The notes beneath the pieces were generated by a model. That model searched no databases, had not been told where the DNA came from, and worked only from the letters and a program-made list of their open reading frames with translations. Positions 41,364 through 47,505 of a DNA stretch of 64,000 bases are shown here, piece after piece; position 1 is the first letter of the stretch; each line of letters starts with the position of its first letter. This stretch comes from Balneicella halophila (lineage in GTDB: Bacteria; Bacteroidota; Bacteroidia; Bacteroidales; Balneicellaceae). Both the position numbers and the translations under genes were made by a program. The stretch lies in contig NZ_QENZ01000003.1 of the NCBI RefSeq assembly GCF_003096835.1, positions 992,001-1,056,000 on the forward strand. The letters run 5' to 3'.

Positions 41364-41953
41364 CTAAAATGTATAACCAATACCGAACTGGATACTGCCA
41401 CCAATCAATCTTTGTAGATATTGTTCATTTTGAAATGGAATTACTGTGTGTGTTTTGAAAGTGGGATTTATATAAAATGAGAAATTATTGATCTCGTATT
41501 TTGCCCCTATCCCTAAACCAAATCCAATTCCTGATTGCGTATTGAAACTACGATCCTTGCTTTGGAAATGCAAGAAAGCCCCTCCATTGCAGAAGAAATA
41601 GTTGCCAAAAGTATAGTTTAGGTACACTGGGATGGCTATTATTTTAAAATCTTCATATTTGGCTGATAAGAGTTGATAAGTTCCTGTGTATGCAGAAGTA
41701 ATTTTTACTGTTCCGCTACTAAGAGTCACACCAGTTTCTAAGGATAACTGTGGTTTTAATTCTCTTAAATATTTTACTCCTAATTCATAACAATTTTCGT
41801 TATCATAACTTGCGTCACCGTCTAATGACGCGCGCATGAGGTCATTATCAGCAAAACCATAAAAGATACGAACCTCATTGTTGCTTTGAGAATATCCTTT
41901 TAAACAAAAAAATAGGAACACAACTAAAAAAAAATAGCAGAATTAATTTTCAT
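41364..41953 (-). pseudogene. Outer-membrane beta-barrel gene with a broken signal peptide
   Basis: The open frame starts with a GTG at 41921 and gives 185 residues (VFLFFCLKGYSQSNNEV...), beginning in the middle of a signal peptide. An ATG at 41953 reads MKINSAIFF and then hits TAG. The two are separated by a run of nine T (coding strand, 41926-41934). One extra T would join them into MKINSAIFFLVVFLFFCLKG ending at Gln, a perfect signal peptide. The body has alternating beta strands and ends in GIGYTF with a terminal Phe, typical of small porin-like OmpA/OMP_b-brl barrels of about 8 strands. It may be phase-variable, decayed or miscalled at the homopolymer. Neighbours give no hint of a specific role. 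Confidence 0.65.
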
Positions 41954-42221: not shown

Positions 42222-43778
42222 ATGAAAGTAGCTGAAAAAATTGCTCTTTTAAAAGAAAAAAGAGAAAAAGCCAAGCTGATGGGAGGAGACCAGCGCCTCA
42301 CAAAGCAAAAAGAAAAAGGCAAACTAAATGCGAGGGAGCGTTTGGATTTGCTTTTTGATGAAGGAACTTTTCAAGAAATAGATACCTTTATAAAACACCG
42401 CTCAGTAAATTTTGGAATGCAAAAAGTAGATATAAACTCTGATGGAGTTATAGTTGGTCATGGGCTAATTAACGGACGCACTGTCTATGCTTTTTCTCAA
42501 GATTTTACTTCAAGAGGAGGCTCGCTAGGTGAAATGCATGCTAAAAAAATATGTAAAGTAATGGATCTTGCGATGAAAGCAGGAGCTCCTTTAGTTGGTC
42601 TTAACGATTCCGGTGGAGCTAGGGTTGAAGAAGGAGTAGATGCCCTTAGAGGATATGGGAATATATTTTTCAGAAATTCTCGCGCTTCAGGTGTAGTACC
42701 TCAGATTTCTGCGATAATGGGACCTTGTGCTGGTGGTGCAGTATATTCTCCTGCTATGACAGACTTTGTATTTATGGTGAAGAAAACCAGCCACATGTTT
42801 ATCACGAGTCCTTACGTAATTAAAACCGTAACGGGAGAGGAAACAACTTTTGAGGATCTAGGTGGTGCAATGGTACACAATACAAAGAGTGGTAATGCGC
42901 ACTTTGCTTGTGATAATGATGAAGACACAATTGAACAGATTCGTGACTTATTAACCTATTTGCCTTCAAATAATATGGAACGTCCACCTATGGTTCCTAT
43001 GGGTGATTCTCCTGATAGAGTGTGTGAGAAATTGGATACGGTCATTCCTGATGATCCTAAAGTACCTTACGATATGAAAGACATTATCCGTGAGATTTTA
43101 GATGATGAGGATTTCATGGAAGTGCATGAGCATTATGCAGAAAATGCAATTGTAGGATTTGGAAGGTTGAACAACCGTAGTGTCGGGGTTATTGGTAACC
43201 AACCGATGATTTCTGCAGGTACTTTAGATATTGATGCTTCTGATAAGATAAGTAGATTCATTCGTACCTGCGATGCCTTTAATATCCCTATTATCACTTT
43301 TGTTGATGTACCCGGATATTTACCAGGAGTTGAGCAAGAGTGGGGCGGTATTATTCGTCATGGAGCTAAGTTGCTCTGGAGCTACTCTGAGGCAACAGTT
43401 CCAAAGATGACAGTGATTTGTCGTAAAGATTATGGAGGTGCTTATTTGGCTATGAGTGCTAAATCTTTGGGTGCTGACATGGTATTCGCATGGCCAACAG
43501 CAGAAATTGCAGTAATGGGTGCTAAAGGTGCTGTAGAAGTTATTTCTAGTTATCGTAAAGAAATATCAGAGGCAGAGGATAAAGCAGCAAAAACGCAAGA
43601 AAAAATAGATGAATATGAAAAAGCATTTAGCGTGCCATATATTGCTGCCGAAAGAGGTTATATAGATGATGTAATTTTACCTTCGGAAACGAGAATACGA
43701 TTAATTTCAAGCTTAGAGGCATTGGCTAATAAAACAGAACTTCTTCCTGCTAAGAAGCATGGTAATATTCCATTATAA
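42222..43778 (+). CDS. mmdA: Methylmalonyl/propionyl-CoA carboxyltransferase subunit
   Basis: A 518-residue acyl-CoA carboxyltransferase with two crotonase-fold halves. It is the counterpart of the transcarboxylase 12S subunit, PCC beta or the decarboxylase alpha subunit. The N-terminal half has the oxyanion segment MGPCAGGAVYSPAMTDF and the C-terminal half has GGAYLAMSAKSLGADMVFAW with AEIAVMGAKGA, both binding the acyl-CoA and biotin. Next come a 61-residue protein (12 nt away) and a biotin-bearing OadA-type protein, with no biotin carboxylase and no beta-subunit Na+ pump gene in this operon. This context favours transfer of CO2 between methylmalonyl-CoA and pyruvate. A stand-alone PCC or a Na+ decarboxylase using partners elsewhere cannot be excluded. 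Confidence 0.93.
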   Translation: MKVAEKIALLKEKREKAKLMGGDQRLTKQKEKGKLNARERLDLLFDEGTFQEIDTFIKHRSVNFGMQKVDINSDGVIVGHGLINGRTVYAFSQDFTSRGGSLGEMHAKKICKVMDLAMKAGAPLVGLNDSGGARVEEGVDALRGYGNIFFRNSRASGVVPQISAIMGPCAGGAVYSPAMTDFVFMVKKTSHMFITSPYVIKTVTGEETTFEDLGGAMVHNTKSGNAHFACDNDEDTIEQIRDLLTYLPSNNMERPPMVPMGDSPDRVCEKLDTVIPDDPKVPYDMKDIIREILDDEDFMEVHEHYAENAIVGFGRLNNRSVGVIGNQPMISAGTLDIDASDKISRFIRTCDAFNIPIITFVDVPGYLPGVEQEWGGIIRHGAKLLWSYSEATVPKMTVICRKDYGGAYLAMSAKSLGADMVFAWPTAEIAVMGAKGAVEVISSYRKEISEAEDKAAKTQEKIDEYEKAFSVPYIAAERGYIDDVILPSETRIRLISSLEALANKTELLPAKKHGNIPL

Positions 43779-43790
43779 AAAGAAAATTAT

Positions 43791-43976
43791 ATGACATTAC
43801 AAGAGAAGAAAAGAAAAGCCGCTGCTATTGCTGTCGCAACGATGATTGCTCTTCAACAAAAGAACAATCAGGTCGAGGAAGATAGTAGATGGAGATTAAT
43901 GGGATTGTACAGAGCTACACAAGCTCGAAATGCTCCACATTTATATGGTAGAGGCTTTGGTACCTATAATTGGTAA
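43791..43976 (+). CDS. Small carboxyltransferase companion (MmdE/OadG-tail-like)
   Basis: A 61-residue basic protein. An Ala-rich helix (KAAAIAVATMIAL) is followed by a linker and a C-terminal SRWRLMGLYRATQARNAP segment. Both parts resemble the C-terminal end of decarboxylase gamma/delta subunits and the short epsilon subunit of methylmalonyl-CoA decarboxylase, where a W+LxG...R motif helps hold the complex together. No N-terminal membrane helix is present, unlike OadG. It sits 12 nt after mmdA and just ahead of the OadA-type gene. The assignment is from motif likeness and context, not from a search. Confidence 0.65.
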   Translation: MTLQEKKRKAAAIAVATMIALQQKNNQVEEDSRWRLMGLYRATQARNAPHLYGRGFGTYNW

Positions 43977-44047
43977 CCTGCATTAAAAAATTAAGTAAAA
44001 CTATAAAATCAGAAAAAGTGAAATACGATAAGCACGGTGTCTTAGAA

Positions 44048-45949
44048 ATGACACAAGTAAAATACGAGGCAGACAGACCAAAAGCTGCCAACCCGATTAA
44101 AATTCAAGACCTAAGTTTCAGAGATGGTCATCAGTCTTTATTTGCTACGCGTGGTCGTACGGAGGATATGATCCCTGTTGCAGAGATGATAGACGAAGTA
44201 GGTTTCCATGCCGTAGAGACATGGGGAGGAGCTACGTTTGATACGATGCACAGGTTTTTAGGAGAAGATCCTTGGGAGAGGATAAGAACCCTTAAGAAAT
44301 ATATGCCTAAAACACCATTCTTTATGTTACTTCGTGGGCAGAATGTAGTTGGCTATAGAAATTATTCAGATGATGTAGTGAAAGCATTTGTTCAACGTTC
44401 TATTGATAATGGAATGGATATTTTCCGTTGTTTTGATGCGCTGAATGATTTTAGAAACTTTGAAACAGCAGCTCAAGTTATAAAAGACAATAAAAAGCAC
44501 TTCCAAGGTGTAGTTTGTTATACACTTACGGAGCCTCGCTTAGGTGGCGAAGTGTACAATATGGATTACTATTTGAATAAGGTACGAGAACTAGAAGACT
44601 TTGGTGTTGATTCTATCTGTATAAAAGATATGGCTGGACTTATTTCACCTTATGATATTTATAATCTTATTCGTGAAATTAAAAAAATCACAGACACACC
44701 TATAAATCTGCATACTCACTTTACTTCAGGAATGGCAGACTTAGCTATTTTTAAAGCAATAGAAGCAGGAGTAGATATTGTAGATACATGTATAGGACCT
44801 TATGCTTATCGTACATCTCATCCTGCATGTGAGCCGTTGATTATGTCTTTGCTTGGAACTAACAGAGACTCAGGTTTAGATATTAAGAAAATAACCGATA
44901 TCTCTGATAAAATGGAAGAAGAGATTATTCCAAAATATAGACATTTAGATAATAATCCTAAGTATGGTATTACTGATATCAATGTAATCCTGCATCAAAC
45001 TCCAGGTGGTATGATTTCTAATTTGGTAAATCAAATGAAAGCCATGGATGCTCTAGACAGAATTGATGAAGTATTCAAATTATTACCTAAGGTTAGAAAA
45101 GATTTAGGTAATATACCTTTGGTTACACCTACTTCTCAAATTGTTGGAGTTCAGACAGTTAATAATGTTTTATTTGATAGTTATGAAGGTGAATATGCTA
45201 AAATAACACAGGAAGTGAAAGATTTGTGTTATGGTTTATATGGAGAAACTACCGAGCCTATAAATCCTGAAGTAAGGGCAAAAGCGCTGAAAGGATACCC
45301 AAGAGGCGAGGAGCCTATTACTGTTCGCCCAGGCAGTATTTTAGAACCAGAAATGGATCAAGTTAAAGAAAAAGTTGGTGATCTTGCTAAAGATATTGAT
45401 GATCAAGTGCTTTTCGCGCTATATCCAGTTACAGGAAAGCGCTTCTTAAAATGGAAATATGGTTTAGAACCAATTCCAGAAGAAGTGAAACCTAAAACAA
45501 TGGAGGATGTAAAGAAAGAGAAAGAATTAATTGAAAAAGCACTTTCAGGTGAATTGACGAGTAAAAAAGGCGGAGATGAAAGCATGGAAGAAATGGAAGT
45601 CTTTGTAGATGGTGAAAAATTCACAGTGTCAGTACCAACCTCTTTGATGGGTGGCGCTAGCATGAGCTCAACAGCGATGCCAAGAAAGCGTAAGAAAAAA
45701 GAAAAACAAGAGGATAGTGGTGCAGGCAAAGGCAGTATTCTAGCCCCAATTCCAGGAATGATTGTGGAATATAAGGTTAAAGAAGGAGATAAAGTTAATG
45801 CAGGAGATGTAGTAGTAGTAGTTGAAGCGATGAAGATGATGAATAATATCGAAACTAAAGTGAGCGGTATTGTTGGAGAAATAAAACTAGACTCTGGTGA
45901 TTCTGTTGCGAAAAATGATGTTCTATTGATTGTAGAGCCAGAAGAATAA
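44048..45949 (+). CDS. OadA/pyruvate carboxylase subunit B-type protein with biotin domain
   Basis: A carboxyltransferase acting on pyruvate/oxaloacetate, fused to a biotin carrier. The ATG at 44048 (633 residues, MTQVKYEADRPKAANPIK) is preferred; a TTG at 43970 and a GTG at 44018 are in frame. The TIM-barrel domain has DLSFRDGHQSLFATR, the metal-binding LHTHFTSGMADL and the carboxylated-Lys segment ICIKDMAG. The PYC-type helical domain follows (to about residue 470). A linker of basic residues leads to the biotinyl domain with EAMKMMNN, where the Lys carries biotin. This equals the transcarboxylase 5S plus 1.3S subunits in one chain. With mmdA it could move CO2 between methylmalonyl-CoA and pyruvate. 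Confidence 0.93.
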   Translation: MTQVKYEADRPKAANPIKIQDLSFRDGHQSLFATRGRTEDMIPVAEMIDEVGFHAVETWGGATFDTMHRFLGEDPWERIRTLKKYMPKTPFFMLLRGQNVVGYRNYSDDVVKAFVQRSIDNGMDIFRCFDALNDFRNFETAAQVIKDNKKHFQGVVCYTLTEPRLGGEVYNMDYYLNKVRELEDFGVDSICIKDMAGLISPYDIYNLIREIKKITDTPINLHTHFTSGMADLAIFKAIEAGVDIVDTCIGPYAYRTSHPACEPLIMSLLGTNRDSGLDIKKITDISDKMEEEIIPKYRHLDNNPKYGITDINVILHQTPGGMISNLVNQMKAMDALDRIDEVFKLLPKVRKDLGNIPLVTPTSQIVGVQTVNNVLFDSYEGEYAKITQEVKDLCYGLYGETTEPINPEVRAKALKGYPRGEEPITVRPGSILEPEMDQVKEKVGDLAKDIDDQVLFALYPVTGKRFLKWKYGLEPIPEEVKPKTMEDVKKEKELIEKALSGELTSKKGGDESMEEMEVFVDGEKFTVSVPTSLMGGASMSSTAMPRKRKKKEKQEDSGAGKGSILAPIPGMIVEYKVKEGDKVNAGDVVVVVEAMKMMNNIETKVSGIVGEIKLDSGDSVAKNDVLLIVEPEE

Positions 45950-45977: not shown

Positions 45978-46010
45978 AAGGATGTCTATTCAACGAGACA
46001 TCCTTTTTTT
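45978..46010 (+). terminator. Terminator of the carboxyltransferase operon
   Basis: A 10-bp perfect stem (AAGGATGTCT / AGACATCCTT) with an 8-nt loop is followed by seven T. It lies 28 nt past the operon's last stop. Confidence 0.92.
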
Positions 46011-46167: not shown

Positions 46168-47505
46168 TTATACGTGTCCTTGAGCTAGCATAGCTTCAGC
46201 AACTTTGATAAATCCACCAACGTTGGCTCCTTTCACATAGTTTACTTTATTACCATCTTTCCCATACTCAACGCAAGTATCGTGGATATCTTTCATAATT
46301 CTATGTAATTTCTCGTCAACTTCTTCAGCAGTCCATCCGTAACGCATAGAGTTTTGAGCCATTTCTAATCCAGAAACAGCAACACCACCAGCATTAGCTG
46401 CTTTACCTGGAGCGAATGTGCAATTCTCAACTAAGTAGTTAACCGCGTCTGCAGTACAACCCATATTTGAAGTTTCAACTACAAATTTACAGCCGTTTTC
46501 TACCAATTGCTTAGCATCATCAATATTCAATTCGTTTTGGATAGCACATGGGAAAGCCATATCAACTTTGCACTCCCAAGGTTTCTTGCCCGCGAAGAAT
46601 TTAGCACCAAATTTTTCAGCATAGGGTTCAACAACATCATTGTTAGAAGCTCTCAATTCTAACATATATTCGATTTTTTCAGGAGTATTGATACCATTCT
46701 CATCGTAAACATATCCATCAGGACCTGAAATAGTAACTACTTTAGCACCAAGTTCTGTTAATTTTGAAACAGCACCCCAGCTTACGTTACCAAAACCAGA
46801 AACAGCTACTTTTTTATCTTTTATAGAATCTCCTTGCTCATGCAACATGTGTTGAGCAAAGTAAACTGCACCATATCCTGTTGCCTCAGGGCGTAAGATT
46901 GATCCACCGAATTCTCTTCCTTTTCCAGTAAGAACACCAGTGAACTCATCGCGAATACGCTTATATTGACCAAATAGGTAACCGATTTCACGTCCGCCTA
47001 CACCGATATCACCAGCAGGTACGTCAGTATTAGGTCCGATATATTTGCTTAGCTCAGTCATGAAGCTTTGGCAAAAACGCATGATTTCATTGTCTGATCT
47101 TCCTTTTGTGTTGAAGTCAGAACCACCTTTACCGCCCCCCATAGGAAGTGTAGTAAGTGCATTTTTGAACGTTTGTTCGAAACCTAAGAATTTTAAAGCA
47201 CTCAAAGATACAGTTGGATGGAAACGAAGACCTCCCTTGTATGGTCCTATTGCACTGTTAAACTGTACACGATAACCTCTGTTGATATGTACTTCGCCAT
47301 TATCATCTGTCCAAGGTACTCTAAACATAAATACTCGCTCAGGCTCTACCATTTTCTCAAGTATTTTAGCCTCTTTGTATTTAGGATTAGCTTGATACAC
47401 ATCCCAAATAGTTTCTACTACCTCTTCTACTGCTTGATGAAATTCACTTTCGCCTGGAGTTCTACTCTTAAGGCTCTCCATGAATTGATCGATTTGCTTA
47501 CTCAT
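46168..47505 (-). CDS. gdhA: Glutamate dehydrogenase (GdhA, hexameric type)
   Basis: Interconverts glutamate with 2-oxoglutarate and ammonia. The 445-residue protein is the small hexameric class. The substrate and catalytic segments are GPYKGGLRFHPTVSLSALKFLGFEQTFKNAL and PMGGGKGGSDFNTKGRSDNE, containing the catalytic Lys. The Rossmann part has VAVSGFGNVSWGAVSKL. Coenzyme choice (NAD or NADP) cannot be fixed by eye. It has its own promoter and terminator, so it is monocistronic. With transaminases such as RocD it links amino-acid breakdown to ammonia release. Confidence 0.96.
   Translation of the reverse strand: MSKQIDQFMESLKSRTPGESEFHQAVEEVVETIWDVYQANPKYKEAKILEKMVEPERVFMFRVPWTDDNGEVHINRGYRVQFNSAIGPYKGGLRFHPTVSLSALKFLGFEQTFKNALTTLPMGGGKGGSDFNTKGRSDNEIMRFCQSFMTELSKYIGPNTDVPAGDIGVGGREIGYLFGQYKRIRDEFTGVLTGKGREFGGSILRPEATGYGAVYFAQHMLHEQGDSIKDKKVAVSGFGNVSWGAVSKLTELGAKVVTISGPDGYVYDENGINTPEKIEYMLELRASNNDVVEPYAEKFGAKFFAGKKPWECKVDMAFPCAIQNELNIDDAKQLVENGCKFVVETSNMGCTADAVNYLVENCTFAPGKAANAGGVAVSGLEMAQNSMRYGWTAEEVDEKLHRIMKDIHDTCVEYGKDGNKVNYVKGANVGGFIKVAEAMLAQGHV

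Follow-up and report, generated by a model that had tools for sequence, protein, structure and literature searches.

The transcarboxylase of Propionibacterium (12S/5S/1.3S; EC 2.1.3.1) combines an acyl-CoA carboxyltransferase (CT), a pyruvate carboxyltransferase and a biotin carrier in a unit that has neither a biotin carboxylase nor a pump. An operon with these same parts is found at positions 42222-45949 (plus strand) of a 64,000-nucleotide stretch, hereafter the window, of the genome of Balneicella halophila (G000). Its CT has a leucine at position 409, as does the Propionibacterium 12S subunit (structure 1on3). The operon differs from the Propionibacterium system in that the biotin carrier is fused to the pyruvate half (residues 592-654) with no separate 1.3S, the pyruvate half is nearer to PycB/OadA than to 5S, the CT is nearer to the PCC beta chains than to 12S, and a small protein is added.

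The nearest printed precedent that we met is also a predicted transcarboxylase. For Pelotomaculum thermopropionicum, a propionyl-CoA:oxaloacetate transcarboxylase has been described as part of its mmc cluster (PMC6046458), and the legend of a pathway figure names one for Desulfotomaculum gibsoniae (PMC4148979). Genes for methylmalonyl-CoA decarboxylase epsilon and gamma are implied for P. thermopropionicum and for D. kuznetsovii, in their mmc clusters (PMC4148979, PMC6046458). This likeness is one of description, not of sequence, and these systems, as described there, have a separate gamma (carrier) gene within a large pathway cluster, whereas the window has a fused carrier in a stand-alone unit.

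The Na+-translocating methylmalonyl-CoA decarboxylases (MmdABCDE) have a related CT, and the small protein of the window weakly resembles the tail of MmdD; unlike them, the window unit lacks MmdB and the membrane delta subunit and contains a pyruvate half, and a complete mmd operon is present elsewhere in the genome. In the Na+-translocating oxaloacetate decarboxylases (OadABG), as here, OadA carries both the PYC_OADA region and a biotin domain fused to it; the window operon differs in lacking OadB and OadG and in pairing its OadA with an acyl-CoA CT. The same three catalytic parts reportedly occur, as one fused chain, in a transcarboxylase of Giardia and Entamoeba (work of Jordan and colleagues, 2003), for which oxaloacetate is said to have been proposed as the donor and acetyl-CoA as the acceptor, in replacement of acetyl-CoA carboxylase; we liken it by description and not by sequence. 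The operon was not found in literature, seen mainly as titles and the starts of abstracts, on transcarboxylases of Bacteroidetes and Prevotella, transcarboxylation to malonyl-CoA, Bacteroidales and Porphyromonas without acetyl-CoA carboxylase, and Entamoeba (PMC3199775, PMC9403272).

A predicted soluble transcarboxylase

The operon probably encodes a cytoplasmic biotin-dependent transcarboxylase whose CT half most likely acts on propionyl-CoA/methylmalonyl-CoA, a reading to which we give a probability of roughly two in three. Oxaloacetate and the biotin borne by the C-terminal arm of the OadA-type half would be the partners of one carboxyl transfer, catalysed by that half; in the other, catalysed by the CT half, the partners would be this biotin and an acyl-CoA, propionyl-CoA/methylmalonyl-CoA being the most likely. 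The small protein probably ties the association domain of OadA to the CT. The predicted net reaction, (S)-methylmalonyl-CoA + pyruvate = propionyl-CoA + oxaloacetate, would be reversible and independent of ATP, free CO2 and Na+ transport. Complex formation, the substrates, the direction and the role of the small protein are inferred.

This reading is supported because enzymes for both half-reactions and a biotin domain lie in one self-contained unit, because the CT gene is directly upstream of the OadA gene in all 19 carrier genomes (in G359, where the CT frame is broken, the adjacency is taken from match coordinates), and because the only OadB/MmdB gene of G000 belongs to an mmd operon that supplies a CT and a biotin carrier itself. 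It is further supported by the lack of a biotin carboxylase match in G000, by Leu409, which matches 12S where the MmdA of G000 has Asp, by intact metal-site and biotin motifs, by the epimerase-like gene with which the mmd operon opens, and by the precedent of Pelotomaculum and Desulfotomaculum. By composition the predicted enzyme is of the same kind as the Propionibacterium transcarboxylase, and by reaction it probably is; it is not filed as a Propionibacterium-type member because its parts are nearer to carboxylase and decarboxylase families. It represents a known type of reaction with a somewhat different set of parts.

The preliminary description of this DNA had proposed a three-gene operon of a 12S-type CT, a 61-residue companion and an OadA-biotin fusion, with no biotin carboxylase or OadB/MmdB gene in it, and the open reading frames (ORFs) and Pfam matches agree on both counts; the third gene matches HMGL-like, PYC_OADA and Biotin_lipoyl (Table 1). 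Its claim of two clear ends stands for one of them. Downstream there is a terminator-like hairpin, such sites numbering four in the region against 2.3 (standard deviation 1.7) in shuffled sequence, while on the promoter side the 10 promoter-like sites in the region are fewer than expected by chance (16.2 in shuffles). The flanking long ORFs (41364-41921 and 46168-47505) are both on the minus strand, and the three genes form a self-contained unit. The third protein probably starts at the GTG at 44018 rather than at the TTG at 43970, because several relatives have M[K/N][F/Y]DKHG where the operon has VKYDKHG beginning with GTG.

Table 1 Features of the transcarboxylase-like operon, numbered by position in the window.
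Feature	Position	Strand	Evidence or remark
Acyl-CoA carboxyltransferase (12S/MmdA/PccB type), 518 aa	42222-43778	+	PF01039, 634.7 bits
Small 61-aa protein	43791-43976	+	Conserved; weak likeness to soluble tail of MmdD/OadG
OadA/PycB-type pyruvate carboxyltransferase with C-terminal biotin domain	44018-45949 (ORF opens 43970)	+	PF00682, PF02436, PF00364
Biotin carrier domain, residues 592-654 of OadA chain; EAMKMM motif	45743-45931	+	PF00364
Biotin-lysine Lys622	codon 45833-45835	+	Within EAMKMM
CT Leu409	codon 43446-43448	+	Aligns with D407 of 6ybp, I of 6ybq and Leu of 12S 1on3
Intrinsic-terminator-like hairpin, 10 pairs, T tail	45978-46005	+	Hairpin scan against shuffles

Kinship of the three proteins

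Among solved structures the window CT scores highest against PCC beta chains (up to 674.9 bits) and lower against 12S (591.5 bits). Its designation as 12S-type is based on this match to 1on3, on PF01039 and on Leu409; the higher scores of the PCC beta chains apply here also. In the CT tree, from which the distant CTs of L131, L138 and L143 and loci repeating a genome were left out (the identical L146 and L027 were retained), the operon CTs, that of SAR202 excepted, group in a single clade (support 100/99) that is distinct from the CT3 clade described below, from the MmdA sequences and from the CTs adjoining a biotin carboxylase.

In view of work on D422 of PccB, the position aligned with Leu409 presumably sets acyl-CoA preference, and the chains 6ybp (D407) and 6ybq (Ile) are otherwise very similar. 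It was surveyed in 66 CT sequences, some of which share a genome (the CT of G359 was left out). Counted by genome, Leu is the residue of the operon CT in 14 of 18 carriers, with Ile in three (G287, G401, G403) and Val in one (G313). The MmdA of mmd operons has Asp (10/20), Cys (6/20) or Ile (4/20), CTs adjoining a biotin carboxylase have Asp (6/7) or Ile (1/7), and CT3 has Ile throughout (10/10). Leu409, a single residue, leans towards a 12S-like role for the window CT. A connection between the loss of Asp in MmdA and a missing biotin carboxylase was considered and rejected: G000 and G056, which lack this carboxylase, keep Asp, and G313 and G259, which possess it, have Cys.

Among solved structures, the pyruvate half is closest to PycB (5ks8, 477.4 bits), followed by OadA (2nx9, 422.7 bits) and 5S (1rqb, 363.1 bits). 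Structure alignments and relatives indicate that its metal-site and biotin motifs are intact. Of the 17 sequences in the OadA motif alignment 15 were judged (L029 and L122 were left out); all 15 retain EAMKM and, with small changes, RDGHQS, KDMAG and LHTHFTSG.

Neither Pfam nor NCBIfam gives a match for the small ORF. It looks like a real gene because it is kept in 16 of the 17 related operons read, in addition to that of the window, and because most differences among five close relatives fall at third codon positions (e.g. 1/4/13 for L025 and L028); it is missing in the SAR202 locus. Aligned with the soluble tail of MmdD, it shares an AAIA motif followed by a conserved W. The profile of the small protein scores 18.9 in hhalign against trimmed MmdD tails, a value reached by none of 500 column shuffles (maximum 16.5); the probability of this match is 13% and its P value 0.0022 as a single comparison, with the tail cut around the shared AAI motif so that trimming favours the match. 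Against whole MmdD the probability is 2.6% (local) or 0.4% (global). Homology to the MmdD tail is suggested by these comparisons. The MmdD of G000 matches OAD_gamma. The small protein has no membrane helix and is too short for both a tail and a helix; a soluble version would be expected to require a helix-free tail of this kind. The small protein probably also bears a weak likeness to MmdE of Veillonella.

Several of these comparisons weigh against a soluble transcarboxylase. The window CT scores 850.3 against a cut-off of 998.8 in the curated mmdA model, and was rejected as a member of it. Similarly, the third protein was rejected as a member of the oadA model (651.2 against 756.5) and of the 5S model NF008984 (455.1 against 827), and it passes the cut-off of NF006761, a domain-type model named 'pyruvate carboxylase subunit B' (683.9 against 402), which by name favours a carboxylase. 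The operon CT of SAR202 lies outside the clade of the others, Leu409 is no clean marker, given the four carriers with Ile or Val and the Asp in just half of the MmdA sequences, the likeness of the small protein to the MmdD tail is weak, and acetyl-CoA is still a possible acceptor. The probability of a transcarboxylase was slightly lowered, and that of a carboxylase slightly raised, because of the NF006761 match and the incomplete conservation of Asp in MmdA.

The preliminary description had gone further than these data on two points. A soluble transcarboxylase using neither ATP nor Na+ is the best-supported core of its proposal, and sequence does not settle methylmalonyl-CoA over acetyl-CoA or the direction of transfer. 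The Propionibacterium composition that it drew holds for the CT, pyruvate carboxyltransferase and biotin parts, and is altered by the kinship of both halves and by the added small protein.

Sodium pump and other carboxyltransferases of the genome

No biotin carboxylase (PF02785) match was found in the G000 assembly (2.09 Mb, 98.2% complete), and the accC model gave two matches far below its cut-off (42.6 and 25.4 bits against 626.5). ATP-driven charging of biotin is therefore unexpected in this organism. The OadB/MmdB family is represented by one gene, which closes an mce-mmdA-mmdD-mmdC-mmdB operon (L013:6984-11435, G000 C4); mce is epimerase-like and was assigned by family and context. This genome-wide check, put forward in the preliminary description, thus returned one mmdB in an operon of its own and no biotin carboxylase.

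The window unit itself contains neither a biotin carboxylase nor a Na+ pump. The MmdB and membrane delta subunit expected with the CT of a Na+ methylmalonyl-CoA decarboxylase are absent from it and sit with another CT at G000 C4, and the OadB and OadG expected with the OadA of a Na+ oxaloacetate decarboxylase are also absent, the sole OadB-family gene being in the mmd operon. The biotin carboxylase subunit of an acyl-CoA or pyruvate carboxylase was not found in G000; other carriers have one. PF02436 occurs once in G000, in the window operon. The pump operon comes with a CT and a biotin carrier of its own. The simplest reading is therefore that the window unit is a soluble transcarboxylase separate from the pump, which would give the cell two machines, the pump and the window unit.

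G000 has three PF01039 genes, namely mmdA, the window CT and CT3. CT3 adjoins a 107-residue biotin carrier (BCCP3), and the ORFs around them include no biotin carboxylase. This two-gene pair (L012:6644-8524, G000 C4) is conserved in L121, L126, L129, L136, L141, L147, L154, L158 and L161, and in all 10 loci read it has no adjoining biotin carboxylase or mmdB match (L154 ends soon after the pair). The 10 loci include those of G000 and G056, and no biotin carboxylase was found in the G056 genome. The pair may be an acyl-CoA:acyl-CoA transcarboxylase.

Two further features of the pump operons were observed. The MmdB of G000 (L013:9810-11435, 541 residues) has a signal-like start and about 120 residues ahead of the pump domain, and both G402 and G394 match it from end to end. 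The MmdD proteins of L119, L127, L166, L169, L170 and L171 (289-327 residues) have an extra N-terminal region ahead of the OadG-like part, with a signal-peptide-like start followed by a common INE...W.E.FN-type stretch.

Distribution and alternative roles

A scan of contigs gave 16 loci, 12 with a long OadA match (49-78% identity), each with a CT directly upstream, and four with the biotin domain only. Among 392 genomes of the order Bacteroidales, eight (including B. halophila) have a full-length match of at least 72%, and six more have a 45-48% match without a biotin domain (E 1e-120 or better). In total there are 19 distinct carriers, B. halophila and 18 others, mostly Bacteroidota, with one Cloacimonadota and a more distant SAR202 metagenome-assembled genome (49%); G399 was left out of the counts, its match places being equal to those of G281. 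In G359 the CT (C12:126325-127790) is split between two frames, which indicates a broken gene or a sequencing error.

Horizontal transfer of the operon is suggested because it is patchy within families and because the window CT pairs differently in the tree from the other two CTs of its genome. The eight carriers within the order are spread over six families, and ten other genomes from five of these families (G005, G112, G195, G054, G146, G171, G064, G155, G088, G173) have no close match. The MmdA and CT3 of G000 both pair with those of G402, a Marinifilaceae metagenome-assembled genome (100/95 and 98/92); for the window CT the partner is the CT of G296 (99/93).

A separate two-gene unit of a biotin carrier and an OadA 45-48% identical to that of the window, with no fused biotin domain, is found in L159, L162, L163 and L174 (also L043, L044 and L045). 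CT and mmdB matches are absent within about 4 kb of it in the four wide loci, and in L044 a weak mmdD match overlaps the end of OadA. It is possible that this unit is another transcarboxylase half.

An mmdB gene lies beside mmdA in 16 of the 19 carriers; no mmdB was found in the stretches read of G398 and G403, and the G395 contig ends before the expected place. Between mmdA and mmdB of the Cloacimonadota genome no mmdD match was obtained. Neither mmdB nor a biotin carboxylase was seen beside the CT-OadA unit in the operon loci read. Biotin carboxylase is present in 15 of the 19 carriers, the exceptions being G000, G085, G401 and G403, and was seen beside another CT in seven (G313, G296, G259, G287, G397, G394, G398).

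The best-surviving alternative is that the complex forms malonyl-CoA by transferring the carboxyl group of oxaloacetate to acetyl-CoA, in place of acetyl-CoA carboxylase. FabD, which uses malonyl-CoA, is present in G000, the one genome checked for it; because no biotin carboxylase and only three CTs were found there, some route other than the usual acetyl-CoA carboxylase should supply its malonyl-CoA. Three further carriers also lack biotin carboxylase. As a general role, which would predict carriers without biotin carboxylase, this was rejected, and it is unlikely because 15 of the 19 have one, including six of the eight in the 392-genome sample, and in seven carriers it was seen next to another CT. 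Nor is the operon a general answer to the loss of biotin carboxylase: in a sample of 198 genomes of the order (completeness of at least 90 requested), PF02785 is present in 126 and not found in 72, and the operon occurs in just two, G000 and G085, both without PF02785. Six sampled genomes without biotin carboxylase each have a single PF01039 gene, an MmdA. G000 also has another candidate in CT3-BCCP3. Malonyl-CoA formation is thus possible in B. halophila itself, although as an explanation of the operon it is unlikely. A broader proposal is tentative and more doubtful than not, namely that biotin chemistry in G000 is free of ATP, with malonyl-CoA made by the window complex (from oxaloacetate) or by CT3-BCCP3 (from methylmalonyl-CoA) and a carboxyl pool in common with the Na+ pump.

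A two-subunit pyruvate carboxylase or an acyl-CoA carboxylase with a biotin carboxylase encoded elsewhere is quite improbable. The proximity of the pyruvate half to PycB, the NF006761 match and the presence of a biotin carboxylase somewhere in most carriers are consistent with it; its absence from the four genomes named above, and from the vicinity of the operon in the loci read, argues against it.

Least probable of all is the alternative raised in the preliminary description, a Na+-coupled oxaloacetate and methylmalonyl-CoA decarboxylase in which OadA and its biotin domain (with the CT) hand carboxybiotin to the MmdB of the other operon. In its favour, mmdB does exist in G000 and most carriers, and binding of an MmdD tail to the association domain of OadA would in principle be possible, to judge from PMC7274780. 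Against it, the mmd operon already includes a CT, a carrier and a membrane delta subunit, the length of the small protein does not allow for a tail together with a membrane helix, and mmdB is not beside the CT-OadA unit in the operon loci read.

If the soluble transcarboxylase is real, it and a Na+-pumping decarboxylase would compete in one cell for the same methylmalonyl-CoA, the transcarboxylase saving the carboxyl group for oxaloacetate and the pump using it up to build a sodium gradient. Since B. halophila seems to have no biotin carboxylase, the source of its malonyl-CoA becomes a question as well. Co-occurrence of the pump operon with the predicted transcarboxylase was seen in 16 of the 19 carriers.

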